The position numbers and the translations under genes were made by a program. A stretch of 36,321 bases of DNA from Bacteroidaceae bacterium (lineage in GTDB: Bacteria; Bacteroidota; Bacteroidia; Bacteroidales; Bacteroidaceae), in the NCBI GenBank assembly GCA_017464815.1, contig JAFTYI010000013.1:1-36321 (forward strand), read 5' to 3'. The notes beneath the pieces are model-generated. The model was not told the origin of the DNA and ran no database searches. It was given only the letters and a program-made list of their open reading frames with translations. Shown here piece after piece: positions 7,908 to 36,066 of the stretch; within the stretch, counting starts at the first letter, position 1; the number at the start of each line of letters is the position of its first letter.

Positions 7908-7991
7908 TTTCTTGGAAAAGTGGCAAAATAAAGCGATTTTTTCTTGGAAAAGTGGCAAAAATGGCTTACTTTTGCCTTAGAAAAGTGGAAA
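7908..7991 (+). promoter_or_regulatory. Promoter with three operator-like direct repeats
   Basis: CTTGGAAAAGTGGCAAAA occurs at 7911-7928 and 7943-7960 within an exact 21-bp repeat that starts three bases earlier. A diverged third copy, CTTAGAAAAGTGGAAA, is at 7976-7991. The copies are 32 and 33 bp apart, about three helical turns. The promoter is TTG (7944-7946), 20 bp, TACTTTTG (7967-7974). Copy 2 therefore covers the -33 box and spacer, and copy 3 covers the transcription start. This is the geometry of a repressor operator for the ATPase gene that starts 5 bp further on. The regulator is unknown; self-regulation is an inference. Confidence 0.75.
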
Positions 7992-7995
7992 TATT

Positions 7996-9342
7996 ATGCT
8001 GGAAAGAAAAATAAGCCGCTATATAATAGACTATTACGAATCAACCCGCAATGCTTTGCTCATTACAGGAGCAAGACAGACGGGTAAGACATTCTCTATA
8101 CGAGAGTTTGGCAAGACATTCAAGGCATTCGTGGAAATTAACTTTGTAGAAAACCCCGAAGCTGTTGAAATATTCAAGAATGCACACAGCAGCAGCGACA
8201 TCCTGTTGCGCCTGTCAGCCATGACCAACGTACCACTCATCAAAGGGGAAACCCTGATCTTCTTTGACGAAGTACAGAAATGCCCGGAGATTGTCACAGC
8301 CATCAAGTTTCTGGTAAACGAAGGTTCTTACCGATATATCCTCAGTGGCTCCTTGTTGGGTGTGGAACTGAAAGACCTGCGCTCTGAACCCGTAGGCTAT
8401 ATGGGGGTTAAAGAAATGTATCCGCTCGACTTTGAAGAGTTCATATCGTGCGTAGGAGTCAGCAACGAGGTCATCTCTTCTATCCGTCGGGCATGGGAAC
8501 AGCGTACTCCGGTTGACGAATTTATCCACACAAAGATGATGGAGCTTTTCCGTCTCTACCTGATTGTGGGCGGTATGCCTGCGGCCGTCAACAGGTACAT
8601 TGAGACGAACAATCTGCAGGAGGTGATGGGCATACAGCAGGACATCATACGCCTCTACAAGCGCGACATTGCACAGTACGATCCCAATAACAAGCTCTAC
8701 ATCGAGGAGATTTTCAATCTGATTCCTCCCGAATTGAATGCCAAAAACAAGCGCTTTATCCTGAAACGCCTGAACGAAAATGCCAAATTCGAACGCTACC
8801 AGAACAGTTTCCTCTGGCTGGCCAATGCCGGTGTGGCGTTACCCGTCTATAACGTGGAAGAACCGAAGACTCCACTGTTGCTTGCCCGTTCGCGTAATCT
8901 GTTCAAACTCTTTCAGAGCGACATCGGTTTGCTGGCAGCACAGTATGCAGAAGGCATCCAACTGCGCATCATCAAGGGGGACAAGGACATCAACTTCGGT
9001 TCAATCTACGAAAATGCCGTGGCACAAGAGCTCGTGGCACACGGTTTGTCTCCTTACTACTACAACAATAAAAAACGTGGCGAACTGGATTTCGTCATTG
9101 AACTGGACGGCAGGGTCATCCCCATTGAGGTCAAATCGGGAAAGGATTACGAAGTTCACCGTGCTCTCTCCAACCTCATGGATTGCGAGGAATACGACCT
9201 GCCCGAAGCCCTTATCCTCACCAATGATAATCTGAGCGTCAAAGGACCTCTCATCTATGCCCCAATCTATATGAGCATGTTTCTTGAAAGAAACAATGAA
9301 GCACCCACTCACTACAAAGTGGACCTGAGCGGATTGATATAG
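7996..9342 (+). CDS. P-loop ATPase, AAA_14/DUF4143 family (locus A)
   Basis: 448-residue ATPase with a nuclease-like tail; biological role not established for the family. Walker A GARQTGKT is at residues 25-32, and Walker B LIFFDEVQ near 87-94. SGSLLG near 115 is the usual sensor-like segment. The DUF4143 region follows, with YLIVGGMPAAVNRY near 190-205. The C-terminal PD-(D/E)XK-like core has GELDFVIE near 361 and PIEVKSGK near 376-383. The leader is very short, since promoter and repeats end 5 bp before the ATG. This is the first gene of the accessory island after uvrC. Its relatives in the window begin (in transcription order) at 11537, 14106, 15903 and 35946. Confidence 0.9.
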   Translation: MLERKISRYIIDYYESTRNALLITGARQTGKTFSIREFGKTFKAFVEINFVENPEAVEIFKNAHSSSDILLRLSAMTNVPLIKGETLIFFDEVQKCPEIVTAIKFLVNEGSYRYILSGSLLGVELKDLRSEPVGYMGVKEMYPLDFEEFISCVGVSNEVISSIRRAWEQRTPVDEFIHTKMMELFRLYLIVGGMPAAVNRYIETNNLQEVMGIQQDIIRLYKRDIAQYDPNNKLYIEEIFNLIPPELNAKNKRFILKRLNENAKFERYQNSFLWLANAGVALPVYNVEEPKTPLLLARSRNLFKLFQSDIGLLAAQYAEGIQLRIIKGDKDINFGSIYENAVAQELVAHGLSPYYYNNKKRGELDFVIELDGRVIPIEVKSGKDYEVHRALSNLMDCEEYDLPEALILTNDNLSVKGPLIYAPIYMSMFLERNNEAPTHYKVDLSGLI

Positions 9343-9353
9343 CAGATTATCTG

Positions 9354-9673
9354 CTGACGTACAGGAATCAATCCGTCCGGCTTTGCCTATTCTTCCGCAT
9401 CCCTTTAACTTAAAATACAAAGCGTAGTGCCGCACTACGCTACAGTGCAATGCCGCATTACACTATTGTACAGTGCCGCACTACACTTTACACCTATCGA
9501 AGAAGTTGTGCGGACAAATAGGTATAGACGGACAGACAAACAGGTATTGTCGGACGGACTTTTTGGGGAAGTAGATTGGAAGAAACTATGCCCTTCCGTG
9601 AAAGGATCTATCCCCTCTTCTCATTTTTCCTCTCTTTTTCATCCAACTTATTTGATTTATTGATATATTTGCA
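9354..9673 (+). repeat. Long intergenic repeat, copy 1
   Basis: About 320 bp, closely matched by 14221-14470 and more loosely by 12664-12890. It contains three palindromes centred on CCG at an exact 23-bp step: GCGTAGTG-CCG-CACTACGC (9422-9440), AGTGCAATG-CCG-CATTACACT (9444-9464) and GTACAGTG-CCG-CACTACAC (9468-9486). Next come two tandem 22-bp units of the AAAyAGGTAT..CGGAC.GAC type (9516-9559). A pyrimidine-rich stretch follows, then TATATTTG (9664-9671), a good -7 box. No convincing gene lies inside. The conserved right end suggests a portable promoter or leader. Confidence 0.75.
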
Positions 9674-9842
9674 GGCGGATTGGGAGCTATCCCGTCCAAA
9701 GACATTAGAAATTGCCCCCGTACGCAATAGAACTAATACAGAAGAAGTCCGTATGATTTATGATTTCTCGGGAATATGGGAGATATGGGATTACCATGTA
9801 TTACGACAATGAGTACAACCGTGCCAACGGAGAAGATCTGTA
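9674..9842 (+). pseudogene. Possible decayed coding remnant after repeat copy 1
   Basis: Between the TATATTTG box and the next gene, fragments of protein-like sequence lie in different frames. One frame reads NTEEVRMIYDFSGIWEI; another ends YYDNEYNRANGEDL and a stop at 9840-9842. Neither has a proper start. This would fit the tail of a gene broken by frameshifts, but short open stretches also occur by chance. No family recognised. Confidence 0.25.
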
Positions 9843-9860
9843 ATTAAAAAAAGGAATAAT

Positions 9861-10103
9861 ATGGTAGAAAAGACATTGAAAGTCGTGTGTGGACAGGATT
9901 CTGACAGTATAAAAAAGTTAGAAGCCTTGTGTAGAGAGAAAGCAGAAGAGCTGAAAAACAAAATAGAGATTTCTAATGGAAATACCGTAGATGTAAGTTT
10001 CTGGACAAAAGGTATGCCTGAACTGATTTGTGTCGGACATTTCCATCAAAATAAATTAGGAGAAATTACGTTTGTATTAGATTTCTCAGAGTCAACTCTA
10101 TAA
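9861..10103 (+). CDS. Hypothetical protein, 80 residues
   Basis: Small soluble protein that I do not recognise. The ATG at 9861 follows AAAAAAAGGAATAAT, a plausible ribosome-binding region. The N-terminal half is a charged helix (SIKKLEALCREKAEELKNK). The C-terminal half looks beta-rich (VDVSFWTKGMPELICVGHF, ITFVLDF). There is no signal peptide and no membrane segment. Its likely promoter is TATATTTG at 9664-9671, in repeat copy 1. Its size and its position after a decayed remnant would suit an orphan immunity or antitoxin-like protein, but nothing in the sequence proves that. Confidence 0.6.
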   Translation: MVEKTLKVVCGQDSDSIKKLEALCREKAEELKNKIEISNGNTVDVSFWTKGMPELICVGHFHQNKLGEITFVLDFSESTL

Positions 10104-10125
10104 TTCTTGTCCCCCTCTTTATCAA

Positions 10126-10165
10126 TACGGCTCTACAAATGAAAACTTCACTTTGTAGAGCCGTA
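10126..10165. terminator. Bidirectional terminator hairpin
   Basis: TACGGCTCTACAAA (10126-10139) and TTTGTAGAGCCGTA (10152-10165) form a perfect 14-bp stem with a 12-nt loop. It lies between the convergent 80-residue gene and the ATPase gene on the minus strand, so it can serve both. Confidence 0.7.
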
Positions 10166-10184
10166 ACTATTTTGCCCAAAGATG

Positions 10185-11537
10185 CTACACCAACGGCGTC
10201 ATATACAACGGCAAGAACAAGATTCCCTCCTCTTCTTTCACGTCACCGGCATGTATCACATAAGGAGTGGAAAGGAAATTGCGATATTTGGCCATACACT
10301 TCCTCAATGAGGTAAGCGTATAGCGGGATGAGGATTTTACTTCAATGGGAGAAATGTTGTGTCGGCTTGTTACTTTGCTTTTCGCAATGAGAAAGTCTAT
10401 TTCCATGCGCTCCTCTTTGTCTTTGGCTGACGGAGAAGAGTAGAAATAGAGTTTATGCCCTGAGGCACGGAGCATCTGAGCCACAATGTTTTCTATCAGC
10501 ATACCGTTGTTTATCTCCAATTTGTCGAGCATAATCTTGCGGTACAGTTCTTCTGATACGATGCCACTTTCATCAAATGCATGACTGATGAGCAATCCCG
10601 TGTCGACCATGTAGCACTTCATGGTAGAATTGTCCTGATTGAGACGAAGGCCGATGCTTGGCTCCGTGGCATTGTAACATGAGTTCATAATCATGGCATC
10701 GTCGAGCCAAAAGAATGCCGTCTCATAGTCGCGTGAACGTGCCCCTTCCTTCAGTGCCGAAAGGCGGAAACGTTTCTCATGCCGTTGGAGTTGCGAAGGG
10801 ATTTCGTCAAAGATGCTTCGCACCTTGGTGTCGTATCCCTTGGCGTATTTGGAGATATCGTTCCGATAGAGTTCTATAATCTGACGCTTCACCCTGTCCA
10901 CCTTTGCAAAGTCTTTTGTCTCAGCATACTTGGCGACGGCTTGTGGCATTCCACCTACGATGAAGTATTGGCGGAAATAGTCCATGGCCTTGCGGTGCAT
11001 CAATTGTCCCATCGGTCGCTTGGCTTCAAAGGCCGAACGGATGAAAGGCATCAGCATCTCTTCACCCATAGCCCAAAGGAACTCTTCAAAATCCATCGGG
11101 TACATTTTCAAGTGTTCCTCCTCCGAGGGAATCACGATGCCTTCCACATTCTTTTTGATGGAAATCAGCGAACCTGTCTCAATGTAGTCATACCGTCCGT
11201 CCTCCACCAGATATTTGATGGCCGCACGGGCTTTGGGATATTGCTGTACCTCATCGAAAACAATGACGGACTCGCGTTCATGAAGTTGAGTGGAAGTATA
11301 GCTGCTGAGGTGCATGAAGAACATGTCCAGATTATCCAAGTAGTTCTCGAACAACTCTTTCACCTCCTTATTCGCCTTGTTGAAGTCAATAAGGATATGG
11401 CTCTTATATTCCCTGCGGGCAAACTCTTTCACTATATAGCTTTTCCCCACACGGCGTGCACCATCAATAAGGAGAGCGGTCTCACCCTGTTGTTCTTGCT
11501 TCCATTTCAGCAACTTATCGTATATCTTCCGTTTCAT
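10185..11537 (-). CDS. P-loop ATPase, AAA_14/DUF4143 family (locus B)
   Basis: 450-residue relative of the ATPase at 7996, on the opposite strand. Walker A GARRVGKS is at residues 26-33, and Walker B VIVFDEVQQ near 91-99. ETGSLISI follows, and the DUF4143-type segment YFIVGGMPQAVAKY is near 190. The C-terminal nuclease-like core has MEIDFLIAKSK and SPIEVKSSSRY around residues 375-400. No signal peptide or membrane segment. It starts with the ATG at 11535-11537 behind its own promoter with three exact direct repeats. Molecular role unknown; the family combines nucleotide binding with a PD-(D/E)XK-like fold. Confidence 0.9.
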   Translation of the reverse strand: MKRKIYDKLLKWKQEQQGETALLIDGARRVGKSYIVKEFARREYKSHILIDFNKANKEVKELFENYLDNLDMFFMHLSSYTSTQLHERESVIVFDEVQQYPKARAAIKYLVEDGRYDYIETGSLISIKKNVEGIVIPSEEEHLKMYPMDFEEFLWAMGEEMLMPFIRSAFEAKRPMGQLMHRKAMDYFRQYFIVGGMPQAVAKYAETKDFAKVDRVKRQIIELYRNDISKYAKGYDTKVRSIFDEIPSQLQRHEKRFRLSALKEGARSRDYETAFFWLDDAMIMNSCYNATEPSIGLRLNQDNSTMKCYMVDTGLLISHAFDESGIVSEELYRKIMLDKLEINNGMLIENIVAQMLRASGHKLYFYSSPSAKDKEERMEIDFLIAKSKVTSRHNISPIEVKSSSRYTLTSLRKCMAKYRNFLSTPYVIHAGDVKEEEGILFLPLYMTPLV

Positions 11538-11542
11538 ATTCG

Positions 11543-11633
11543 CACCAAATCGAGATTATCAAACAGGCGTATTCTACACCAAATCGAGATTATTGAACGG
11601 TGCAAATATACACCAAATCGAGATTATTGGCAA
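11543..11633 (-). promoter_or_regulatory. Promoter with three operator-like direct repeats, exact 34-bp step
   Basis: CACCAAATCGAGATTAT(T/C) (plus-strand reading) occurs at 11543-11560, 11577-11594 and 11611-11628, an exact 34-bp step. On the minus strand the promoter is TTG (complement of 11631-11633), 20 bp, TATATTTG (complement of 11603-11610). The third copy lies within the 20-bp spacer between -33 and -7, and the other two lie in the leader. Such placement predicts strong repression by whatever protein binds the repeat. The sequence is unrelated to the repeats of locus A. Confidence 0.8.
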
Positions 11634-11671
11634 CTATTTCTGCTATTTTTATCTGTTTTCATGCAAAAAAA

Positions 11672-11726
11672 AACGAGCTACGGAGGAATAAAAAAGCAAA
11701 AATGCTTCTCCGTAACTTGTTTTTAA
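11672..11726. repeat. Orphan hairpin of the GAGyTACGGAnGAATAAAAA family
   Basis: AACGAGCTACGGAG (11672-11685) pairs imperfectly with CTCCGTAACTTGTT (11708-11721). An A run precedes it and a T run follows. It closely resembles the hairpins at 15818-15869 and 18878-18926. Unlike those, it lies between two divergent genes and follows no gene, so a terminator role is not obvious. Confidence 0.65.
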
Positions 11727-11846
11727 TCTAGTTTTAAACAGGCGAAGATGCTATGTTTAAAACTTTCACATTCATAACGAAATCATATTTCAAGAACGAC
11801 ATCTGCCAGGAAATAGTCATCAAGCCGCTAAATTCAAGGGATAAAG

Positions 11847-11877
11847 TTGTTGTTTTGAAATAAAAGCATTACTTTTG
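11847..11877 (+). promoter_or_regulatory. Promoter of the TSUP permease gene
   Basis: TTG at 11847-11849, 20 bp, TACTTTTG at 11870-11877: a full Bacteroidetes-type promoter. The start of transcription would fall near 11884, leaving a leader of about 15 nt before the ATG at 11899. No repeats surround it, in contrast with the ATPase promoters. Confidence 0.7.
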
Positions 11878-11898
11878 CTAAAAAACCGAGCACTCATC

Positions 11899-12624
11899 AT
11901 GTGGACAACCCTCTTTCTTGTCTTCGCCCTCACCATTGTGGCCAGCTTCATCCAGCGGGTCACGGGTTTTGGGTTCGGTATCTTCGTCATGATGTTCTTC
12001 CCCCACTTCCTGCCCACCTACGGCGAATGCACCACCCTGTCGGGCCTCTTGGCGGGGAGCACAGCGCTGATTATTGCCGTGCAGAATTGGCGCTACATCC
12101 GTTGGCGGATGATGGGTCTCGTATTGCTCTTCAACGTAGTGGCCTCGTACATCGCCATCGAGTACATGACGGCACTGAGTAACGACACACTGAAGCGCTG
12201 TTTCGGAGCGGTGCTCATCCTCATTGCCCTCTATTTCCTTTTCCTTGACGGACGCACAAGGGTATCGCTCAAGTCCCCGTTGGCGCAATCGGGCGTAGGC
12301 ACCATCAGTGGCATCATGGGCGGCATGTTTGCCATGCCCGGCCCTCCCGTAGTGCTCTACAGCGTCAGCGTCCTTCCCGACAAGCGGGAGTATGTGGCCA
12401 CCCTCCAGGCTTTTTCCGTCCTTTTCAACCTCTTCTACACCCTTTTCCGCCTGCGGGTGGGCTTCTTCCCCTCCTCCACCCTACCCCTCTGGGCCTTCGG
12501 CCTGCTAGGCGGTTTCATCGGTGCATGGCTAGGCAGCCGCCTCTTCCTCCTCATCAGCAATGCCCGCCTGAAGCAGCTCGTCTATCTGATGATGATTATC
12601 AGCGGCCTCGTGACAATGTGGTGA
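11899..12624 (+). CDS. TSUP-family membrane permease (TauE/SafE, DUF81)
   Basis: Inner-membrane protein of 241 residues, of the family that moves sulfite, sulfoacetate, taurine-derived or other small organic anions. There are about seven or eight hydrophobic segments. The N-terminal block FIQRVTGFGFGIFVMMFF and the half-way block GTISGIMGGMFAMPGPPVVLYS are the two duplicated family signatures with conserved G and P residues. The frame is open from a TTG at 11875, but that codon lies inside the -7 box, so the ATG at 11899 is the start. It faces the ATPase gene at 12934-14106 tail to tail. Substrate not predictable. Confidence 0.88.
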   Translation: MWTTLFLVFALTIVASFIQRVTGFGFGIFVMMFFPHFLPTYGECTTLSGLLAGSTALIIAVQNWRYIRWRMMGLVLLFNVVASYIAIEYMTALSNDTLKRCFGAVLILIALYFLFLDGRTRVSLKSPLAQSGVGTISGIMGGMFAMPGPPVVLYSVSVLPDKREYVATLQAFSVLFNLFYTLFRLRVGFFPSSTLPLWAFGLLGGFIGAWLGSRLFLLISNARLKQLVYLMMIISGLVTMW

Positions 12625-12663
12625 GCAGCCTCTCACTCTCCGCCGACGCTCCGCAACAGTTCC

Positions 12664-12890
12664 ACTGACCTACAGGCATCCATCCACCGACAAACAACGA
12701 AAGTGCCGCTCAAGAACCGTAGTCTTTTGAAAGTACAGTGCCGCATTGCACTAAAGTGTAGTGCCGCACTATACAATTGCACAGTGCCGCACTGCACTTT
12801 TCACCTACCGAAGGAGTTGTGCGGAGAAATAGGCATAGACGGACGGAGAAACAGGCTTTGTCGGACAGACTTTTCGGTAAGAGAATCAAC
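12664..12890. repeat. Long intergenic repeat, copy 2
   Basis: Diverged relative of 9354-9673, beginning CTGACCTACAGGCATCCATCC. It has three CCG-centred palindromes at an exact 23-bp step (CCG at 12741, 12764 and 12787). The shared AAGGAGTTGTGCGGA.AAATAGG block and the AGACGGAC..AAACAGG...GTCGGACAGAC tandem follow. It stops before the pyrimidine-rich and TATATTTG end found in copies 1 and 3. It fills the gap between the convergent TSUP and ATPase genes; I see no gene in it. Confidence 0.7.
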
Positions 12891-12933
12891 TTATATAAAG
12901 ATAATAATCAACCTTTTACACAACCAACCCCCA

Positions 12934-14106
12934 CTACACCCCTAATACCTCATCCAAATGCGAATAGTTGAGCAACTTGATTTCGCCAGCGGTATTCTCA
13001 AAAGTCCCAGCATATATCACAGCCTTGCCTTGCACGGGAGCCTCAATCCAGTTATTCATTTGCTTCAAAGCTTTCTCAAAACCGGTGTGATAGGTCATTG
13101 AAGATTTGATTTCAATGCCATAGAATTCCTGACCTTTATCCAACAACAGGTCAACTTCATTCTGATTCGAATCACGATAGAAATAGAGATTGCTCTCCTT
13201 TCCCTGATTATACCGATGCTTCAAGGCCTCCATCACCACAAAGTTCTCAAACAAGGCTCCGCGCATCTTGTCACGGGCAAGTTGCTTTGGCGATTCGATG
13301 CCCAACAAATGGCAAGCAAGCCCTGTGTCCGTAAAGTAGAGTTTTGGGGTCTTGGTCAACCGTTTACGCGTACTCTTGAAATAAGGAGGCAGCAAAGCAA
13401 TGATGTAGGAAGCTTGCAAAACAGATAACCATGACGTAATCGTATGAGAGCTGACACCGATTTCATTAGCCAGCTCCGAAGCGTTGAATAAGGAGCCTAT
13501 ACGCCCGGCACAAAGTCGGACAAACGTGTGGAACTGCATCATATCTTTTATCTGAAGCAAATCGCGCACGTCTTTATCCAAATAAGTCTTCATATATGCT
13601 GGATAAAGGAATTTAGGCACGTTGCGACCTGCGTATATCGCCGGATAAAATCCATCAAACAAGAGCTTATCCAGCGGCATCTCAACAGCCATATCCTGTA
13701 TTTCAGAGTAGGAAAGAGGCAACAACTCGAACACGGCTGTGCGACCGGCTAAAGATTGAGTTACCTTTTTCAACATGGCAAATTGTGAACTTCCAGAAAG
13801 GATAAATCGCAAATCCGGATTATCGTCCACCATACCCTGAATGTACGACAACAGATGAGGAGCATTATGCACCTCATCAAGAATCATACCCTGTGTGTGC
13901 TGGTTTAAAAAGGCAACAGGGTCATTCTCTGCAAAACCCCGGACATCAAGGTTTTCCAAAGAGTAATATGGTAAATCGGAGAACAGATTACGAATTAACG
14001 TAGTCTTTCCCGATTGACGAGGTCCTGTCACTGTGATTACGGAGAAATAGCGGTACGCCTCCTCCATCGCTGCTGACAATTCTCTGCGAATATACTTTGT
14101 TTTCAT
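12934..14106 (-). CDS. P-loop ATPase, AAA_14/DUF4143 family (locus C)
   Basis: 390-residue COG1373-type protein, shorter than its neighbours and closest to the classic AAA_14 plus DUF4143 plan. Walker A GPRQSGKT is at residues 28-35, and Walker B GMILDEVHNAP near 73-83. SGSSQF is the sensor-like motif near 103, and LPLSYSEI the family segment after it. A winged-helix-like stretch, ASELANEIGVSSHTITSWLSVLQASYII, is near 207-234 and could bind DNA. The C-terminal nuclease-like core is NEVDLLLDKGQEFYGIEIKSS near 325-345. Start ATG at 14104-14106. Function unknown. Confidence 0.9.
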   Translation of the reverse strand: MKTKYIRRELSAAMEEAYRYFSVITVTGPRQSGKTTLIRNLFSDLPYYSLENLDVRGFAENDPVAFLNQHTQGMILDEVHNAPHLLSYIQGMVDDNPDLRFILSGSSQFAMLKKVTQSLAGRTAVFELLPLSYSEIQDMAVEMPLDKLLFDGFYPAIYAGRNVPKFLYPAYMKTYLDKDVRDLLQIKDMMQFHTFVRLCAGRIGSLFNASELANEIGVSSHTITSWLSVLQASYIIALLPPYFKSTRKRLTKTPKLYFTDTGLACHLLGIESPKQLARDKMRGALFENFVVMEALKHRYNQGKESNLYFYRDSNQNEVDLLLDKGQEFYGIEIKSSMTYHTGFEKALKQMNNWIEAPVQGKAVIYAGTFENTAGEIKLLNYSHLDEVLGV

Positions 14107-14111
14107 CTTGT

Positions 14112-14183
14112 TTTATGCAAATTTGAAATGCAACTGCAAATTTACATAAAATATCGGATACGCAATAATCTTTGTAGATTATT
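14112..14183 (-). promoter_or_regulatory. Promoter with nested inverted repeats (locus C)
   Basis: TTTATGCAAATTTG (14112-14125) and CAAATTTACATAAA (14137-14150) are inverted copies with one mismatch and an 11-bp spacer. The second arm contains the minus-strand -7 box TAAATTTG (complement of 14137-14144). A TTG lies 18 bp upstream of it (complement of 14163-14165). Further out, AATAATCT-TTGT-AGATTATT (14164-14183) is a perfect small palindrome. This is dyad rather than direct-repeat geometry, so it is a weaker member of the operator-like set. Confidence 0.55.
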
Positions 14184-14220
14184 ATCGCGCTTGAGTGCAA
14201 TAATTTGTACTATCGTTCCA

Positions 14221-14470
14221 CTGAGGCTACCCCGTTTTGCCTGTTCTTCCGCATCCCTTTAACTTAAATATGCCGCACTATACTTTACACCTATCGAAGG
14301 AGTTGTGCGGACAAATAGGTATAGACGGACAGACAAACAGGTATTGTCGGACAGACTTTTCGGGGAAGTAGATTGGAAGAAACTATGCCCTTCCGTGAAA
14401 GAATCTCTCCCCTCTCCTCATTTTTCCTCTCTTTTTCATCCAACTTATTTGATTTATTGATATATTTGCA
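14221..14470 (+). repeat. Long intergenic repeat, copy 3, with promoter
   Basis: Nearly identical to copy 1 from TTGTGCGGACAAATAGG through the pyrimidine-rich tract to TATATTTG (14461-14468). The CCG palindrome array is reduced to one half unit (TGCCGCACTATAC), as if units were lost by slippage. Here the TATATTTG box lies 21 bp before the ATG of the secreted protease-like gene, so this copy supplies that gene's promoter. Confidence 0.75.
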
Positions 14471-14489
14471 AAAAATAAAAGCAAACCGT

Positions 14490-15776: not shown

Positions 15777-15817
15777 TAGGAAACACTTGAATCTCCTCCT
15801 TAAGTGCTAAAAAAAAC

Positions 15818-15869
15818 GAGTTACGGAAGAATAAAAATAGAAAATACTCTTCCGTAACTCTTTTTTTTA
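15818..15869 (+). terminator. Hairpin with T tract, GAGTTACGGAAGA family
   Basis: GAGTTACGGAAGA (15818-15830) and TCTTCCGTAACTC (15848-15860) form a perfect 13-bp stem, followed by a run of nine T. It ends the preceding gene. The arm sequence GCGGAAGAAT recurs just after the next promoter's -7 box (TACCTTTG at 15870-15877), so it may also act as an operator for the following ATPase gene. Confidence 0.75.
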
Positions 15870-15886
15870 TACCTTTGCGGAAGAAT
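15870..15886 (+). promoter_or_regulatory. -7 box and third repeat copy before locus D
   Basis: TACCTTTG at 15870-15877 is a consensus -7 box, though no TTG lies 20 bp upstream. The bases GCGGAAGAAT (15877-15886) repeat the arm of the hairpin at 15818-15860. The three sites are centred about 26-28 bp apart, an arrangement like those of the other ATPase loci. Confidence 0.55.
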
Positions 15887-15902
15887 TTAAAAGCGTTTCG
15901 AT

Positions 15903-17327
15903 ATGAATGCAAAGATTATAGGAAGAGAAAAGGAGCAGGATGTGCTGAAAAGTTGCTTCGAATCGGAAAAAGCCGAACTGATTGCAGTTTATGGCCGACG
16001 CCGTGTGGGAAAGACATTCCTCGTGAAAAACTTCTTCAGGGAAAAGTTTGACTTCTATATCACCGGTATCTACCAAGGAAGCAAGAAGGAGCAACTACAA
16101 TTCTTCAACAGGCAACTGTGTGCCCATTCCGGTGTACCTTATCCGTATGCCGACAATTGGTTTGATGCATTCGAACAGTTGAAGCATTACATTTCGGGAT
16201 TGAAGAAGGACCGTGTCGTCATCTTCATCGACGAACTGCCTTGGCTGGACACACCACGCTCACGCTTCACCAAGGCCTTGGAACTGTTTTGGAATAGTTG
16301 GGCAGCCGACCAACCCTCAATCAAGATGGTGGTATGCGGTTCGGCCACCACATGGATGATGTCGCATCTGTTAGGCAATAAAGGAGGACTGCACAACCGC
16401 GTCACCCGACGCATCAAACTCTCTCCCTTTACTCTTGCCGAGGTGGAGGCTTACCTGAAATCGCAAAGCATCGTGTGGAACCGTTACCAGATAACCGAGG
16501 CTTACATGATATTGGGCGGTACACCTTATTACTTACAGATGTTGCAAAAAGGAATGAGCCTCTCGCAAAATATCGACTACCTGATTTTCTCCGAGAATGC
16601 AGAACTGAGGGACGAATATGGTTTTCTGTTCAAGTCACTCTTCAACGACTCTGCCATCTACCGTTCTACGGTGGAACTGCTCAGCCGGAAAGCCAAAGGG
16701 ATGACGCGCATGGAGATAGTGCAGTCGCTCAAACTCCCGGAAGGCGGAGCTATCTCTGAGGTGCTTGAAAACCTGTGTAACTGTGATTTCATTCGGAAAT
16801 ACTCCGCATTCGGGAAGAAAGAACGTGACGTACTTTACCAACTCACCGACCTATTCACCCTCTTTTACCTGCGCTTTGTAAAAAACAGCAACAGACGCGA
16901 TGAGCACCTGTGGAGCAACATGATAGACTCTGCCGAACGCCGGACATGGAGCGGCTATTCCTTCGAGCAAGTGTGCCTGCACCACATTCCCCAAATCAAG
17001 CAAAAGCTCGGCATCAGCGGCATACAGAGCGATGTCTGCTCGTGGAACACGCCCACTACAGAAGAGCACAAGGGTGGACAAATAGACCTGTTAATTGACC
17101 GTCGCGACCAAATCATCAATCTGTGCGAAATGAAGTATTCTACCCAAGAATACGAAATCACCAAGCGGTATAACGACGAGATGCAAGAACGCAAAGAGCT
17201 TTTCCGCTCAAAGACAAAGACCCGCAAAGCCCTGCATCTGACCCTGGTCACCACCTACGGAGTGAAGCCCAATGCCTATTCCGGCATGATTCAAAGCGAA
17301 GTGACAATGGATGATTTGTTCAGATAA
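15903..17327 (+). CDS. P-loop ATPase, ATPase_2/DUF234 family (locus D)
   Basis: 474-residue protein of the COG1672 type, a different branch from the DUF4143 proteins around it. Walker A GRRRVGKT is at residues 31-38, Walker B VVIFIDELPW near 103-112, and VCGSATTWM near 147 is sensor-like. A winged-helix region around 255-310 (SRKAKGMTRMEIVQSL..GGAISEVLENL) could bind DNA. The C-terminal DUF234-type nuclease-like domain has GQIDLLIDRRDQIINLCEMKY near 394-414, with the D and E-x-K positions kept. ATG at 15903. Function unknown; relatives are common in archaea and Bacteroidetes. The next gene is only 53 bp away. Confidence 0.9.
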   Translation: MNAKIIGREKEQDVLKSCFESEKAELIAVYGRRRVGKTFLVKNFFREKFDFYITGIYQGSKKEQLQFFNRQLCAHSGVPYPYADNWFDAFEQLKHYISGLKKDRVVIFIDELPWLDTPRSRFTKALELFWNSWAADQPSIKMVVCGSATTWMMSHLLGNKGGLHNRVTRRIKLSPFTLAEVEAYLKSQSIVWNRYQITEAYMILGGTPYYLQMLQKGMSLSQNIDYLIFSENAELRDEYGFLFKSLFNDSAIYRSTVELLSRKAKGMTRMEIVQSLKLPEGGAISEVLENLCNCDFIRKYSAFGKKERDVLYQLTDLFTLFYLRFVKNSNRRDEHLWSNMIDSAERRTWSGYSFEQVCLHHIPQIKQKLGISGIQSDVCSWNTPTTEEHKGGQIDLLIDRRDQIINLCEMKYSTQEYEITKRYNDEMQERKELFRSKTKTRKALHLTLVTTYGVKPNAYSGMIQSEVTMDDLFR

Positions 17328-18844: not shown

Positions 18845-18877
18845 ACCAAGTTAAAAATAAATATGCCCTATAAAAGC

Positions 18878-18926
18878 CGAGTTATGGATGAATAAAAATA
18901 AAAAAATTCTCCATAACTCGTTTTTT
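18878..18926 (+). terminator. Hairpin with T tract, GAGTTATGGA family
   Basis: CGAGTTATGGA (18878-18888) and TCCATAACTCG (18910-18920) form a perfect 11-bp stem followed by six T. It fits as terminator of the preceding gene. It shares its arm and the GAATAAAAATA loop start with the hairpins at 11672 and 15818. A related GTGGACGAATAA follows the next promoter's -7 box. Confidence 0.7.
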
Positions 18927-19001: not shown

Positions 19002-20498
19002 ATGACAGAGACCAATCGGCTAGAGTATAAACAGGAGCTGACACCCGAAGTGGACATTGAGAAAGAGGTGGTGGCCTTCTTGAATTATAAGGAGGGCGGA
19101 TTCATCTACATCGGTGTTGACCGCGGGGGAAAGACCGTGGGCGTGGATGATATAGACGGCTGTATGCTGAAGCTGAAAGACCGCATCAAGAACAACGTCT
19201 CCCCTTCGGCCATGGGATTGTTCGACATTGCCACGGAGCAACGCGACGGTCTCAGCGTCATCAAACTGACGGTGGCCAGCGGCATAGAGAAACCTTATTT
19301 CAAGACGAAATATGGCATGACTCCCAAGGGGGCTTACATTCGCGTGGGAACCTCGGCCGAGCCGATGCCACAGGAACAGATTGACCGCCTGTTTGCCACA
19401 CGCACCCGAAACTCCATCGGACGCATTGTCTCCAACCGTCAGGACTTGACCTTCGAGCAACTGCGCATCTACTACGACGAGCATGGCAAACGGTTGAACG
19501 ACAATTTCAAACGCACATTGGAACTGCTGACCGAGGAGGGAAAGTATAACTACGTGGCCTATCTGTTGGCTGACGAGAACGGCAATTCCATCAAGGTGGC
19601 CAAATACTCCAGCCTCGACAGGTGCGACCTGATAGAGAATAATGAATATGGCTATTGCTCTCTCATCAAAGCCACCAAAAGCGTGTTGTCCAAGTTGGAG
19701 ATTGAGAACAAGACAGCAGCCACCATCACTCCGGTGGAGCGCATCGAGACGCCCCTGTGGAACCGCATTGCCCTCCGCGAGGCGGTTATCAACGCCATCG
19801 TACACAACGATTACTCCTTTGAAGTGCCACCCAAGTTTGAAATCTTCCCCGACCGACTTGAAATCACCTCTGCCGGCCGTCTGCCCGAATCACTCAGCCG
19901 CGAAGAGTTCTTCAACGGAGTCTCTATCCCTCGCAACAAGGAACTGATGCGTATCTACCGCGATGTGGAGTTGGTGGAGTCTTTAGGCTCCGGCATCCCC
20001 CGCATCCTCCGTGCATACGGCGAAGAGAGCTTCAAGTTTACCGACAATTTCATCCGCATCACTTTCCCCATCGGAGTGCATGATACCGCACATGTTACCG
20101 CGCATGTTGGAGAAGAAGGCACCCAGTCGGAAGCAAATCGGCACCAAGAAGGAAGTGACTCTGACACAAGGACTAATACCAACAATGGCACTAACTCTAA
20201 AATCGACACTAACACTGATACCGCACATGTTACCGCACATGTTACCGCACATGTTGAAAAACTGATTTCAGTCATTGAAGGAGAGTTGAACAGGGAGGCT
20301 TTGCAGGAACTGGTTCAAATAAACCATCGCCAGCATTTCCTAAAGGAATACCTGAAACCATCCATCGAGGCTGGATACATAGAATTGACCATCCCCGACA
20401 AACCAAAGAGCATCAATCAGAAATACCGATTGACTCCTAAGGGATTGCAGTTTAAGGAAATGATAAAGAGGAAAGAGGAAAAAGGAATAATACAATAA
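19002..20498 (+). CDS. AlbA_2 / RecG-like predicted transcriptional regulator
   Basis: 498-residue COG2865-type protein. The N-terminal Schlafen-type AlbA_2 domain (residues 1-130) has the family patterns RLEYKQELT, FLNYKEGGFIYIGVD and KGAYIRVGTS. A HATPase_c_4-like region spans about 245-360 with LREAVINAIVHNDY and ESLGSGIPRIL. A low-complexity linker follows with TAHV tetrapeptides, twice then three times. The C-terminal winged-helix-like domain (LNREALQELVQ..YRLTPKGLQF) matches the C-terminal domain often found in Fic-like and AlbA_2 proteins. Proteins of this type are predicted regulators; some Schlafen-like AlbA domains are nucleases. It is the last gene of the island, 11 bp before dtd, and may share its transcript. 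Confidence 0.87.
   Translation: MTETNRLEYKQELTPEVDIEKEVVAFLNYKEGGFIYIGVDRGGKTVGVDDIDGCMLKLKDRIKNNVSPSAMGLFDIATEQRDGLSVIKLTVASGIEKPYFKTKYGMTPKGAYIRVGTSAEPMPQEQIDRLFATRTRNSIGRIVSNRQDLTFEQLRIYYDEHGKRLNDNFKRTLELLTEEGKYNYVAYLLADENGNSIKVAKYSSLDRCDLIENNEYGYCSLIKATKSVLSKLEIENKTAATITPVERIETPLWNRIALREAVINAIVHNDYSFEVPPKFEIFPDRLEITSAGRLPESLSREEFFNGVSIPRNKELMRIYRDVELVESLGSGIPRILRAYGEESFKFTDNFIRITFPIGVHDTAHVTAHVGEEGTQSEANRHQEGSDSDTRTNTNNGTNSKIDTNTDTAHVTAHVTAHVEKLISVIEGELNREALQELVQINHRQHFLKEYLKPSIEAGYIELTIPDKPKSINQKYRLTPKGLQFKEMIKRKEEKGIIQ
20085..20255 (+). repeat. 12-bp coding repeat (TAHV units)
   Basis: ACCGCACATGTT occurs at 20085-20096, 20220-20231, 20232-20243 and 20244-20255, with a one-base variant at 20097-20108. 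In frame it encodes the tetrapeptide TAHV (T-A-H-V), twice before and three times after an S/T/N-rich stretch. Tandem in-frame units invite replication slippage that changes linker length without a frameshift. Confidence 0.8.
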
Positions 20499-20509
20499 TT
20501 ATCACATAT

Positions 20510-23655: not shown

Positions 23656-23737
23656 GTAATAAAACGTCAAACTAAGGAGCAATAAAGAGGTAAAGTCAGC
23701 ATTTTTTAGTACTTTTACCACCAAAATAACAAACAAT

Positions 23738-26824: not shown

Positions 26825-26874
26825 CTCCGTTCTGCCTTGCTTCACTTCGCGGGACAAAGTGTATCAGAACGGAG
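26825..26874. repeat. Inverted repeat after the surface-protein gene
   Basis: CTCCGTTCTG (26825-26834) and CAGAACGGAG (26865-26874) are exact inverted copies. C- and G-runs flank them and can extend the stem, and a smaller CACTT/AAGTG stem lies inside. It follows the stop of the large surface protein (minus strand) and may end the B12 operon, though a T tract is lacking. Confidence 0.55.
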
Positions 26875-26887
26875 AAGGGGAGAATAG

Positions 26888-30766: not shown

Positions 30767-30785
30767 TTTCTTTTGATTATTACGC

Positions 30786-32060
30786 TTATTGTTTGTATAT
30801 CTTCTTTCCATCGTGTATATAGAGCCCACGGTCAGGTGCAACATCCATACGCATACCTCGCAAATCAAACATTCCATCGGCTCTTACAAGTCTGCCTCTA
30901 TCTGCTATCTGTCTTATGCTGGTAACGTCATCTCCATCGGGTGGGAGAGCCAGAAAGTGTGCCGGATTGATATAAACCTTGTGCCTCCCCAAGAAGTTGC
31001 CTTCGGGCGACCATTGAACCAATGCACCAGCTGCTGCAAAAGAACCCGCATCGGTAGCATAGATATATCCTGTATAAGGATTGACGTATACACCATACGG
31101 CATACCCAATGCCATCAGGTCGTCAAGCATGGTGCCGGGTAAAGACTCTTCTACTCCGCCTGCTCCATCTGTAATGATTACTTCACAGGGGTCGATGACT
31201 ACGTAATTGAATGTATATTCATTAGTATAATAGGAGAATCGTGCTCCAATGGCCAAGAAGTTGCCGTCAAGCATCGTGCAGTTATAGGTTGATGCATACT
31301 CCAAGACAACGAAACAATCATCATCCCCCTCAAGCGCTTTCTCGCAGTCGAAGATAACCGTCGCTGCAGGTATGTCGTAATAGTCGCCCGGAGAGTTGAT
31401 GCACAGATACTGCCCCGACTGCGACAGCTTACCATAGAGATTGATTTGTCCAGTGTCAACGTCGCGAACCAACTGCATGGTCTCCGCATCGATGATGCTC
31501 ACGGTAGTTTCATATTCGTGGTCTTCTTGGAATGCATATCCACCCGTATTGGCAACGAAGAGGTGGCCCTCATAAAGTGCAATACCCTCCGGCTCATACC
31601 CTACCTCGCAGGTGGCAACAACCTTGAACGTCCGGATGTCAATCTTGGCAACGTATCCCTTTGTAAATGTGACAAACCCATCTACTGTGCCACATTCATG
31701 GCCATAGGAAGTCACATAGACATAGTTCCCGTCAGTAGCAAGTTTACGGTTGTTGGGCACATCTTCGGTTTCTGCCACACTTTTCCCGTCGGGCGATATG
31801 AATTGGATGATGTTGCTCCAATTTACAGATATGGCAATCAGATTGTTGTTGACCTGGATGATATCGTTGGGAGTATCGCCAAGTTTGCGTTTGTTGACAT
31901 CCCTAAACCATTGGTTACTGATGACCTCACCATCTTCAAAATAGGTAATTTTCCCGTTATCGGCCTGCCAGTTGCCCTCGTTCAACAGGATGATACGCTC
32001 TTGAGCCTGTAGTATGTTCACAGCAATAGAGCAAAGAAACAATAGAATCAGTTTTTTCAT
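30786..32060 (-). CDS. btuG: BtuG-like surface beta-propeller (DUF5074), cobalamin capture
   Basis: 424 residues, related to BtuG, which sits on BtuB at the surface of Bacteroides and binds B12 very tightly before passing it on. A signal peptide MKKLILLFLCSIAVNILQAQ starts it. Propeller blades with YVTSYG, KIDIRTFKVVATCEVGYEPEGIALYEGHLFVANTGG and TVSIIDAETMQLVRDVDTG follow, then NPYTGYIYATDAG. Known BtuG proteins are lipoproteins; here I see no good lipobox. Instead there is a C-terminal tail MFDLRGMRMDVAPDRGLYIH, then DGKKIYKQ, like the sorting tail of the next gene. The start codon overlaps the btuB stop (ATGA), so translation is probably coupled. Confidence 0.88.
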   Translation of the reverse strand: MKKLILLFLCSIAVNILQAQERIILLNEGNWQADNGKITYFEDGEVISNQWFRDVNKRKLGDTPNDIIQVNNNLIAISVNWSNIIQFISPDGKSVAETEDVPNNRKLATDGNYVYVTSYGHECGTVDGFVTFTKGYVAKIDIRTFKVVATCEVGYEPEGIALYEGHLFVANTGGYAFQEDHEYETTVSIIDAETMQLVRDVDTGQINLYGKLSQSGQYLCINSPGDYYDIPAATVIFDCEKALEGDDDCFVVLEYASTYNCTMLDGNFLAIGARFSYYTNEYTFNYVVIDPCEVIITDGAGGVEESLPGTMLDDLMALGMPYGVYVNPYTGYIYATDAGSFAAAGALVQWSPEGNFLGRHKVYINPAHFLALPPDGDDVTSIRQIADRGRLVRADGMFDLRGMRMDVAPDRGLYIHDGKKIYKQ

Positions 32061-34048: not shown

Positions 34049-34094
34049 TGTTCAATCCCAACCCAATCCCGGGGGTTATGAATGATGATGCAAG

Positions 34095-34265
34095 AGGCAG
34101 GTCTTCTGACTTGTCGCCCGGCACGAACGTCTTCCCGAAAAAATGTTCAGTGACTTCATGTTCGCCCAGAAAAGCGACTTACAGCTGCGGGACAGTTCAG
34201 GACTTTCACCTGATTCCCTTTTAATCGTTGTCTGCGGAACCTGCGTCGGCTTCCAACAGGTGCAA
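34095..34265 (-). promoter_or_regulatory. Cobalamin riboswitch
   Basis: On the minus strand the leader of btuB contains GGGAATCAGGTGAAAGTCC, CTGTCCCGCAGCTGTAAG and the B12-box AAGTCAGAAGACCTGCCT (complement of 34095-34112), in the order and spacing of the AdoCbl-type riboswitch core. It ends about 47 bp before the btuB ATG, so binding cobalamin would shut the operon, probably by hiding the ribosome site or by early termination. Confidence 0.93.
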
Positions 34266-34282
34266 CGAACCAAATGCGGGTG

Positions 34283-34290
34283 CAAAGGTA
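34283..34290 (-). promoter_or_regulatory. -7 box of the B12 operon promoter
   Basis: TACCTTTG on the minus strand (complement of 34283-34290) is a consensus -7 box. Transcription would start just upstream of the riboswitch core. A TTG lies 22 bp further upstream (complement of 34313-34315). Confidence 0.6.
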
Positions 34291-34329
34291 CGGCTTATTT
34301 TTGAAAACAATGCAATCTCCGGCAAAAAA

Positions 34330-34374
34330 AATTATCCATACTCCCTGTCCGAGCATTGCTTTTGTTGGATAATT
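34330..34374. repeat. Inverted repeat abutting the polA remnant
   Basis: AATTATCC (34330-34337) and GGATAATT (34367-34374) are exact inverted copies 29 bp apart. The right copy ends at the base before the polA-like sequence begins (34375), so it may mark a junction. Confidence 0.5.
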
Positions 34375-34513
34375 TGCACGACGAACTCAACTTCTCCGTC
34401 CTCCCCGAAGAGCGCGACCGCGTGCAACGGAAGAGATGGAGGGTGCCTACCTGATGCAAGTCCCTCTCCAGACCGATTGCGGATGGGGAAAGAACTGGTT
34501 GGAGGCGCATTAA
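34375..34513 (+). pseudogene. Broken second copy of the polA 3' end
   Basis: TGCACGACGAACTCAACTTC through GAAAGAACTGGTTGGAGGCG to the stop matches polA 26397-26545, from motif C to the last codon. A 10-bp deletion (CATCGTCATC missing after GTGCAACG) breaks the frame. Substitutions are nearly all silent: AGC/TCC serine, GGC/GGT, CCC/CCT, CAA/CAG, GAC/GAT, GGT/GGA and TGA/TAA, with one Ala to Thr. Silent divergence means the copy separated as a working gene, most simply in a related genome, and decayed later. Confidence 0.9.
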
Positions 34514-34547
34514 AAACATTTCCTCAAACGGGTGAATACCCTGACTT

Positions 34548-34597
34548 TTTTTCCTCCCTTACCTGAAAAAAATATTTTCCAGACAGGGGAGGAAAAA
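34548..34597. terminator. Bidirectional terminator
   Basis: TTTTTCCTCCC (34548-34558) and GGGAGGAAAAA (34587-34597) are inverted copies, each with a T or A run on its outer side. It lies 42 bp beyond the stop of the ATPase gene on the minus strand and can end that transcript. Confidence 0.6.
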
Positions 34598-34638
34598 TTC
34601 TTTTGTGGGAAGGTTCTTTTCATAATTTCTCATATTTA

Positions 34639-35946
34639 TTATTCTTTCTCCAAAAAACTTCTCCAAACCGGCAACACCTCTATCGTCAAATCGCCTTGTT
34701 GTATGGAGGTCTGTTGGTTGTGGGTGATTATCTTGCAGTTGGTGCATCCAGTAAAGGCCGAGGCTGCTAACAGGCCTTTCACTTCCCGCTCTGTGTTTGA
34801 CGCATCCAATGCCCAACACACTTGCAGAAGTTCCGTCACCTGGTCGCCTCGCTGAACCACAAAGTCGCACTCCTCCGAGTCGTGGAAATAGGAAATACGC
34901 TCGTCCTCTCCCAATGTGCGTTGCAACATCATATAGACGATGTTTTCCAATGCCTTCCCCTCGTCTTCACTTTGTGGAAGCAGTACGGCCGTGCGCAAAC
35001 CAATGTCGGCTATGTAGTATTTGGGAAGAGCCGTATTCTCCTTCACCAGCGACTTGGTGTATCGGGGCACCCGATAGAACATGAAGATGTTGCAGGCATA
35101 GTCAAGCCATTGGTACAAAGAATCCTTCGACACCTTCATTCCCTGCGATTTCAGCTCGTTGTAGATGGCATTCACGCTGGTGGGCTTGGTCAGATTGTTC
35201 ATCACCCGCTTCAAGACGTAGCGTATGACGGAGGGCGATGCACCGATGCGGTAGTGTTCTATCAGGTCGTGAAACAACATAGTGTTGAAGTACGACTGAA
35301 GGATTTTTGTCTTCTCCGTCTCCCCCTGCGTCAAAACTACTTGGGGAAAGCCGCCCTCCTTGCAATAGGAGCGGAATGCACTGGCAAGCACAGCGGCCCC
35401 GTCTTCGGTATATCTGTTGGCCTCTATTCCCTTGAAAGAAAGGTATTCGTCAAAACTGAGCGGATATTCCCGATACTCGTCAGGCCATCCACGGAGTGCC
35501 GAAGCCATTTCACCCGATAACATCTTGGCCGTGCTGCCCGTCACATAGATGTTCTTGCAATAATTCTTATAAACTCGAAGCACGAACAATTCCCACCCGT
35601 CAACAAGTTGGATTTCATCGAAGAACATATACACCTCCTTCAACGATTGACCCGGATACATTTCGCGATAGGCTTGAAGTATCTCATCAAACTGATTGGC
35701 TTCCATGGATATGAAGCGTTCGTCATCAAATCCGATATAAAGAATCCGCTCGCGAGGAACACCGCTTTCAAGCAAGCGATTGATGGCAAGCCCCAGCAAC
35801 GATGACTTTCCGCAACGGCGGATGCCGGTCACCGTCACGATACGCTCCCCATTGATGGGCAATTTACGTTCCCGCTCCTGCAAACTCAGTGGCAATTCCG
35901 CCTGATGCAAGGAAATGATAGACTGAAATGTTCTACGAAGTTCCAT
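34639..35946 (-). CDS. P-loop ATPase, AAA_14/DUF4143 family (locus F)
   Basis: 435 residues from the ATG at 35946; the frame is open to a TTG at 35979, but that would lie upstream of the -7 box. Walker A GIRRCGKS is at 41-48, and Walker B VYMFFDEIQ near 105-113. TGSTAKML is sensor-like, and LSFDEYLSFKG follows. The C-terminal nuclease-like region has ECDFVVQRGDQVTELLQVCW, in which the usual E-x-K is replaced by QVC. I recall that subfamily pattern and expect no nuclease activity. It lies outside the uvrC-dtd island, just after the polA remnant, with three palindromes at its promoter. Confidence 0.9.
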   Translation of the reverse strand: MELRRTFQSIISLHQAELPLSLQERERKLPINGERIVTVTGIRRCGKSSLLGLAINRLLESGVPRERILYIGFDDERFISMEANQFDEILQAYREMYPGQSLKEVYMFFDEIQLVDGWELFVLRVYKNYCKNIYVTGSTAKMLSGEMASALRGWPDEYREYPLSFDEYLSFKGIEANRYTEDGAAVLASAFRSYCKEGGFPQVVLTQGETEKTKILQSYFNTMLFHDLIEHYRIGASPSVIRYVLKRVMNNLTKPTSVNAIYNELKSQGMKVSKDSLYQWLDYACNIFMFYRVPRYTKSLVKENTALPKYYIADIGLRTAVLLPQSEDEGKALENIVYMMLQRTLGEDERISYFHDSEECDFVVQRGDQVTELLQVCWALDASNTEREVKGLLAASAFTGCTNCKIITHNQQTSIQQGDLTIEVLPVWRSFLEKE

Positions 35947-35967
35947 AATTCTTTCCTGTTTTGCGTG

Positions 35968-36066
35968 CAAAGATAACAACTTTCCTTTTCAGAAGGAAAT
36001 AAATGAGGAATATTTTCCTTCTGAAAAGGAAAGTTTCCATGAATTCTTTCCTTTTGGGAAGGAAAG
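35968..36066 (-). promoter_or_regulatory. Promoter with three operator-like palindromes (locus F)
   Basis: On the minus strand TATCTTTG (complement of 35968-35975) is a consensus -7 box, 22 bp before the ATG. Upstream, AACTTTCCTTTTCAGAAGGA (from 35978, arm to 35999) and its exact inverted copy at 36014-36035 are followed by a related palindrome, CTTTCCTTTTGGGAAGGAAA (from 36046, to 36066). Each is itself a CTTTCCTT/AAGGAAAG-type dyad. Centres are about 36 and 31 bp apart. No clear TTG is at -33, where the first palindrome lies. Confidence 0.7.

Follow-up and report, generated by a model that had tools for sequence, protein, structure and literature searches.

Promoter repeats of AAA_14-DUF4143 ATPase-nuclease genes: spacing by protein subfamily and a model of privately addressed self-repression

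A stretch of 36,321 nucleotides from Bacteroidaceae bacterium GCA_017464815.1 (contig JAFTYI010000013.1, forward strand), called the window below, encodes five putative ATPases with nuclease-like domains and one SLFN_AlbA_2 protein, and repeated sequences lie at the promoters of these genes. A sequence-only reading of the window had proposed that each ATPase, or a linked factor, recognizes only its own sites and controls its own gene. The comparison across homologues presented here supports the central idea of that proposal, namely that each ATPase goes with its own sites, and it changes several of the particulars.

Genes of the window and their promoter repeats

The genes under study, with the basis of each assignment, are as follows.

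7996..9342, + strand: gene 1, AAA_14-DUF4143 ATPase-nuclease, PDC-S01 (Pfam, PADLOC models, AlphaFold 2 (AF2) model)
10185..11537, - strand: gene 2, AAA_14-DUF4143 ATPase-nuclease, PDC-S01 (Pfam, PADLOC models)
12934..14106, - strand: gene 3, AAA_14-DUF4143 ATPase-nuclease, PDC-S01, other subfamily (Pfam, PADLOC models)
15903..17327, + strand: gene 4, ATPase_2-type ATPase-nuclease, PDC-S27 (Pfam, PADLOC model, AF2 model)
19002..20498, + strand: gene 5, SLFN_AlbA_2 - HATPase_c_4 - Fic-like_C protein (Pfam)
34639..35946, - strand: gene 6, AAA_14-DUF4143 ATPase-nuclease, PDC-S01 (Pfam, PADLOC models)

Genes 1, 2, 3 and 6 match the Pfam families AAA_14 and DUF4143 over the cut-off, and gene 4 matches ATPase_2, with a sub-threshold match to DUF234. 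The best PADLOC models for PDC-S01 give 672, 393, 326 and 344 bits for genes 1, 2, 3 and 6, and the PDC-S27 model matches gene 4 with 684 bits. Among 48 homologues of gene 1, residues G30, K31, E92, E339, D365, E378 and K380 are invariant and D91 is conserved in at least 90%; we take E339, D365, E378 and K380 to be the catalytic residues, in accord with the PD-(D/E)XK pattern. The AF2 models of genes 1 and 4 contain an AAA core, a winged helix and a nuclease-like fold with the conserved motif residues, and the nearest solved folds are those of archaeal Walker ATPases, CED-4/NLR, Avs5 and Orc1/Cdc6. With its ATPase and nuclease motif residues unchanged or almost unchanged among the homologues, the protein probably does more than regulate.

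According to the accessible portions of two reports, PDC-S01 and PDC-S27 are counted among the most widespread defence candidates and await validation (PMC12988326, PMC13356809); the accessible portion of the former describes their architecture as an ATPase fused to a PD-(D/E)XK domain, and PDC-S01 as reportedly the fourth most common defence system across prokaryotes, again with validation pending (PMC12988326). The suggestion that these are defence loci therefore fits the PADLOC assignments, but the two families are candidates only, and anti-phage validation is described in the same portion as pending for most such candidates (PMC12988326). Window positions 7682-14420, which hold genes 1-3, are occupied by mostly unrelated DNA in two relatives (G123 and G193) with the flanks conserved, as in a variable locus.

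The promoter elements found at genes 1, 2, 3 and 6 are listed next.

7908-7928, 7940-7960 and 7973-7993, + strand: gene 1 array, three direct repeats of CTTGGAAAAGTGGCAAAA-type sites, steps 32 and 33
7967..7974, + strand: gene 1 -7 box TACTTTTG, between sites 2 and 3 (sequence)
11543-11560, 11577-11594 and 11611-11628, - strand: gene 2 array, direct repeats of AATAATCTCGATTTGGTG-type sites, steps 34 and 34
11603..11610, - strand: gene 2 -7 box TATATTTG, between array sites (sequence)
14111..14151, - strand: gene 3 dyad TTTTATGTAAATTTG / CAAATTTGCATAAAA, over the -7 box (repeat search, homologues)
35947-35960, - strand: gene 6 half site (repeat search)
35968..35975, - strand: gene 6 -7 box TATCTTTG, adjoining the array (sequence)
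35980..36068, - strand: gene 6 array, CTTTCCTTTTnnGAAGGAAAG near-palindromes starting at 35980, 36013 and 36046, steps 33 and 33

Repeats had been described at six promoters of the window, and this picture holds for genes 1, 2 and 6, which have three direct repeats each; gene 3 has a single dyad instead of three sites, and gene 4 has an inverted pair with a partial third copy. The layout, given earlier as a spacing of 26-36 bp, narrows to a step of 32-34 bp in genes 1, 2 and 6. Sites like those of gene 1 also occur upstream of homologues, and the gene 3 dyad is retained in its 85-88% homologues and in a varied form down to 57%. Perfect inverted repeats with arms of 13 and 14 bp lie near genes 1 and 2 (positions 7835-7872 and 10126-10165) and are possibly terminators.

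Repeat spacing across homologues

The draft genome from which the window comes (2.63 Mb, 58 contigs, 79% complete) contains 29 DUF4143 matches, 26 of them over the curated cut-off, and all 29 were analysed by scoring the best ungapped self-diagonal within -180..+10 at steps of 15-60. Upstream repeats with a score of at least 14 were found at 15 of the 29 genes, 12 at step 32-34 and three at 22-23. The same score was reached by 20 of 157 control open reading frames (ORFs; those with at least 100 bp upstream, out of 250 called in 400 kb), and in none of them was the best step 32-34, so the 32-34 step is peculiar to the DUF4143 genes, although repeats of some kind are frequent. Scanning 436 kb at step 32-34 revealed five places scoring at least 16, two of which are the gene 1 and gene 2 arrays, and these two arrays alone reach 18. 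Tandem repeats at 17-28 bp are abundant in this genome; many are intergenic and often built of palindromic units (ACTATAG, CTTAACCCATGG, CATAGTCCA), as at loci L047-L066 and at window positions 12730-12798 and 14310-14353.

Homologue sets were assembled for genes 1, 2, 3, 4 and 6 from up to 30 best matches each in related genomes and compared by eye and by score, with proteins at least 90% identical removed and three rows (L092, L098 and L101) left out. When the own-genome genes and the sets of genes 1, 2 and 6 are combined, 57 of 96 non-redundant genes score at least 14, and their steps are 22 (two genes), 23 (one), 32 (12), 33 (38) and 34 (four), with no other value. Controls from all sets reached this score in 6 of 123 3' flanks (none at 32-34), 8 of 120 far-upstream regions (two at step 33), none of 124 gene-internal segments and none of 630 shuffled sequences. 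Repeats at step 32-34 are thus far commoner at these genes than at control genes, both in the own genome and among homologues, which is the outcome that the sequence-only reading required.

A second set of 80 loci from genome contigs, many of them metagenome-assembled genomes (MAGs) and with many phylum labels, gave 79 usable genes (L211 was dropped), and the best repeat had a step of 32 or 33 with a score of at least 10 in 66 of these 79, which were not dereplicated (at least three of them, L200, L208 and L230, duplicate loci of the first set, L069, L074 and L079). Among 300 neighbouring ORFs used as a control, 16 scored at least 10 at step 32-34, of which nine share the ATPase's own array, five are ATPases by eye and two are unexplained. 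Eight genomes reached via second-set loci (rows L363, L343, L352, L367, L371 and L375 left out) added archaeal arrays at 23 and 33-34, along with a few at 40-54. Two MAGs stand out for extreme copy number, a Kiritimatiellae MAG (G208, 3.5 Mb) with 37 DUF4143 matches and a Methanocorpusculum MAG (G201, 1.3 Mb) with 21. The arrays also occur on plasmids: 93 plasmid records carry a relative of gene 1, and all four that were inspected, including one from Vibrio and one from Acinetobacter, have an array at step 32 or 33.

After dereplication of all sets, step could be compared with subfamily for 232 non-redundant proteins, the genes of 151 of which have a repeat score of at least 12. In cluster 1, which includes genes 1 and 2 and comprises 140 genes from bacteria and archaea, the step is 32-34 in 109 of 112 scoring genes. 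The 12-gene cluster of L007 (cluster 4, five genes archaeal) has step 23 in 10 of 11 scoring genes and 46 in the other; the gene 6 cluster (49 genes) has step 32-34 in 15 of 19. Six scoring genes of the 23-member gene 3 cluster have no common step, and the remaining eight genes include one at step 33 and two at 22. AAA_14-DUF4143 genes often carry about three direct repeats at the promoter in several bacterial phyla and in archaea, and the step goes with protein subfamily in both domains. The usually quoted helical repeat for DNA in living cells is about 11 bp per turn, so steps of 33 and 22 correspond to three and two helical turns.

The sites and their probable reader

Alignment of the copies within arrays separates a core of 16-18 bp from the DNA between sites. 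In 79 arrays, 48 of which have three sites, identity between copies is 0.68-0.96 in the core (columns 1-17) and 0.31-0.38 in the spacer (columns 20-25); among gene 1 orthologues across genomes (189 site pairs) it is 0.79 in the core and 0.31 in the following 12 bp. Sites were picked for similarity, which somewhat inflates the within-array core values and affects the between-species values less. Since the spacers are not conserved, the arrays consist of sites and are not tandem duplications. That they are neutral tandem repeats of a repeat-rich genome is accordingly scarcely credible: repeats at steps 17-28 are indeed common in this genome, but step 32-34 is rare elsewhere (none of 20 scoring controls, three further places in 436 kb), conservation, both among the copies of an array and from species to species, is confined to the cores with the spacers at background level, and the pattern is found in two domains. 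For the direct-repeat classes we consider this explanation refuted by the conservation of cores and not of spacers.

The sequence of the repeat, like its step, follows the ATPase, as had been suggested from the window. Repeat similarity and protein similarity are correlated (Mantel Spearman 0.44 over 7381 pairs, 0 of 999 permutations), and motif similarity is 0.66 both within and across phyla at 55-65% protein identity and 0.74 within and 0.76 across phyla at 65-80%. Differences in the core thus go with differences in the protein and depend very little on host phylum. Among 80 loci no neighbouring gene family occurs at more than six, and that one is another ATPase; this lack of a conserved partner gene disfavours the linked factor that had been offered as an alternative reader. 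The proposal that the ATPase-nuclease itself reads the array is well supported by these sequence comparisons. A separate host regulator that reads the repeats and controls all these genes might be suspected from the TTGGAAAA-like core common to many cluster-1 motifs, but the 15 arrays of the own genome show about 14 different motifs by eye, like motifs recur with like ATPases under different phylum labels, the step follows ATPase subfamily, and no linked factor was found at the loci; we regard such a regulator as very unlikely.

The addresses defined by these cores were searched for in the draft genome. With up to two mismatches, the gene 2 core has three matches, all in the gene 2 array. When up to three mismatches are allowed, the gene 1 core gives ten matches, of which three lie in its own array, three in the array of the paralogue L008, one is a perfect match at C1:52552 and three have three mismatches; a reversed-pattern control gave six matches, which places the three-mismatch sites at chance level. 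When the fifteen own arrays were compared with 436 kb (17% of the genome), matches occurred only at the window's own array sites, and the L008 core matched the gene 1 array sites. These results indicate that the majority of the addresses are private, that a few neighbouring or paralogous genes share one, and that a single address may also serve a target elsewhere. An origin of the repeats as transposon ends was considered and rejected; the gene 2 motif occurs only in its own array, and there is no copy of the gene 1 motif 3' of gene 1.

Local sharing is clearest for gene 4, whose promoter carries an inverted repeat and not a direct array.

15810..15868, + strand: inverted repeat at the gene 4 promoter, with arms at 15810-15833 and 15845-15868 whose centres are separated by 35 bp (repeat search)
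15875..15891, + strand: gene 4 half site, a partial third copy ahead of the start codon (repeat search)
18872..18926, + strand: further copy of this palindrome, ahead of gene 5 (genome search)
11676..11717, - strand: outlying copy of this palindrome, ahead of gene 2 and between divergent ORFs (genome search)

The palindrome pattern occurs at three places in the draft genome, all of them in the window, with the other two within 5 kb, and it is therefore not a genome-wide dispersed repeat, an idea that we rejected. The AlbA_2 protein (gene 5) had been credited with a repeat set of its own; its inverted repeat is the gene 4 sequence, so it has no set of its own. Relative G123 has the palindrome in one copy only, and relative G193 has a second copy close to gene 4, just past the 3' end of another AAA_14-looking ATPase gene. 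An inverted repeat scoring at least 12 lies upstream of 13 of 22 gene 4 homologues, and controls reached this score in 1 of 22 3' flanks, 4 of 22 far-upstream regions, 0 of 22 gene interiors and 0 of 110 shuffled sequences. The inverted repeat could be merely an intrinsic terminator of the upstream gene, and a T run does follow it in the window, but its frequency among the homologues is above the controls, many of the homologue repeats lack a T run, their sequence varies from gene to gene, and the copy at 11676 sits between divergent ORFs. Taken together, these features make a terminator improbable.

Two further observations concern other parts of the window. In G123 and G193, positions 34375-34514 (140 bp) of the window and the 3' end of a polA-like gene have their match at one and the same place; in the window that gene lies at ~23731-26545, which looks like an insertion of ~7 kb with a duplication. 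ARAGORN calls a selenocysteine tRNA at 3709-3808 on the minus strand, inside a gidA-like gene, which is probably a false positive.

A model of self-repression and its relation to known systems

The start codon is usually no more than 160 bp from the array, and a -7 box was found in 62 of 88 arrays. In 48 of these 62 the box stands at repeat phase 12 or 19-24, a preference whose test is inflated by relatedness (shuffled pairings give p = 7e-6, compared with 5e-8 observed). A preferred phase and arrays near the start codon are what a self-repressor would need. An RNA leader was considered and rejected, as transcription starting from the -7 box would not include an array that lies upstream of it. 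The promoter geometry, the likely activity of the protein beyond regulation and the naming of the families as PDC-S01 and PDC-S27 lead us to propose a self-repressed nuclease that sits on a private array and is released by invasion.

In this model, neighbouring protomers would bind along a single face of the DNA, with the winged helix that separates the ATPase from the PD-(D/E)XK domain as the probable contact, and an ATP-dependent oligomer would occlude or contact the promoter and so repress its own gene. A private address would stop co-resident copies (29 matches here) from controlling one another. On invasion, some signal (ATP state, replication or sequestration by invader DNA) would release the protein, which would lead to more protein synthesis and free the nuclease. 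The ATPase_2 gene of the PDC-S27 type (gene 4) may exert the same self-control through an inverted pair of sites, and the presence of its site at two neighbouring promoters would make a small local regulon. Comparison shows the conservation of the sites and their linkage to the protein; from there we infer binding, repression, release, trigger and defence role, and consider it probable that each AAA_14-DUF4143 ATPase-nuclease binds the array at its own promoter and represses itself through a private address.

Several results in addition to the relatedness noted above weigh against this model. No direct array with a score of at least 14 was found at 14 of the 29 own DUF4143 genes, and this score is reached by 0 of 8 genes of the gene 3 set and by 2 of 22 of the gene 4 set, at steps 52 and 53. 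A Thermus ATP-binding gene of similar kind (WP_011174357), which we presume to be TT_P0211, has no array upstream; for TT_P0211, the accessible part of a published study gives a 6.6-fold rise in RNA when an Argonaute-positive strain carries a plasmid (PMC4406477). At some loci (e.g. L082, L083 and L088) the array is placed 50-120 bp upstream of the -7 box, unlike what simple occlusion would give. At 35-45% protein identity, motif similarity is somewhat lower across phyla (0.53) than within them (0.58), and many loci come from MAG contigs that may carry a wrong phylum label. The mutual information between protein and motif columns is diffuse (90 sequences, Neff 52) and no domain stands out; region-wise partial correlations over the same 90 sequences (4005 pairs) (winged helix 0.12, nuclease 0.10, AAA core -0.11) are too weak for the reading domain or residues to be named.

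The strict orthogonality of the sequence-only reading also has to be relaxed: gene 1 and its 57%-identical paralogue L008 nearly share a motif (score 0.85), and genes 4 and 5 share the palindrome. In addition, the lone perfect gene 1 site lies at another promoter (L365:2552-2569, equal to G000 C1:52552-52569), where it fronts an 842-aa protein without a Pfam match and stands 6 bases from a TACTTTTG box, as at gene 1. A Pkinase-LRR_5 gene lies just upstream of this locus.

Alternatively, the array may be a docking or holding platform on which the ATPase-nuclease is stored until it leaves on infection, or a replicon-like mark comparable to Orc1/Cdc6 origin boxes, with regulation secondary. The motif residues are invariant or nearly so, beyond what a repressor needs, arrays upstream of the promoter exist, the fold resembles Orc1/Cdc6 and CED-4/Avs5, and haloarchaeal origins depend on the cdc6 beside them, according to the accessible part of one report (PMC3936714). 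However, the -7 box has a preferred phase, many arrays are near the start codon, and 29 replicon-like loci per chromosome would be odd, so we hold this reading to be possible but unlikely, and retain private self-repression as the better account.

Viral contigs provide a lead, not a result, on how invaders might meet these addresses. A search by DNA pattern alone, for two copies of the gene 1-type core TTGGAAAARYG spaced 32-34 apart, yielded 13 stretches that fall into 12 families, and no ATPase homologue was found in these 13 stretches; at step 26-28 the same search gave one stretch, coding-looking, and at step 38-40 none. Five families are non-coding (L409/L417, L410, L412, L416 and L418), five look coding (L406, L411, L413, L414 and L415), and two are doubtful, L407 lying in an antisense frame and L408 overlapping a start codon. 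Five neighbouring proteins on phage contigs yielded one transposase-like match. Counted against the idea of decoys, a control with the same letters rearranged gave 17 stretches in three families, 15 of the stretches being one coding 11-aa repeat, with a coding single and a non-coding pair (L427) besides; the latter, GTGATAAAAAGGTTACG at step 32, resembles the array of another address. Pairs of GGAATAAGTG occur in four viral stretches of two families, both coding. Viral contigs also contain 48 relatives of the ATPase, many with their own arrays. The bare viral pairs may be decoys or borrowed switches, and some are coding chance matches.

We offer a broader picture with little confidence: PDC-S01 and PDC-S27, with tens of thousands of loci in bacteria and archaea, may form a natural library of largely orthogonal, self-addressed ATPase-nucleases, each held inactive and self-repressed as an oligomer on its own two- or three-turn array and freed by invasion, with some phages carrying bare pairs of the same core and step as decoys or as a borrowed switch.

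A cis-element found in two domains provides a handle on mechanism, as it tells which DNA to offer the protein. The array suggests an oligomer that reads sites on one helical face, and a copy number that is accommodated by changing addresses. Thousands of protein-site pairs could teach the recognition code of a new class of presumed DNA readers, which would be useful as orthogonal genetic switches. The element also connects an NLR-like ATPase with a DNA switch in a way that can be tested.

We found no description of promoter arrays at these ATPase genes in a literature search that covered mainly openly available papers, and the accessible portion of the report that names these same families, PDC-S01 and PDC-S27, mentions no promoter element for them (PMC12988326). 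Repressors of defence islands of the RptR type are small regulators, distinct from the effector, that have one conserved site, whereas here the large effector itself is the apparent reader and the site differs from gene to gene. Autoregulated toxin-antitoxin systems and restriction controller proteins likewise encode the DNA reader that acts at their own promoter, but that reader is a small protein of its own, whereas in the genes described here a single chain combines ATPase, nuclease and presumed reader. Iteron-binding plasmid initiators act on direct repeats at helical steps and are autoregulated by the initiator, but the loci described here are mostly chromosomal, dispersed and nuclease-bearing, and no replicon genes were noticed at them. 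Orc1/Cdc6 is an AAA+ protein with a winged helix. In haloarchaea each origin depends specifically on its co-located cdc6, according to the accessible part of that report (PMC3936714); the proteins considered here differ in having a nuclease domain, their arrays keep a fixed two- or three-turn step with a promoter inside or next to the array, and a chromosome holds many copies.

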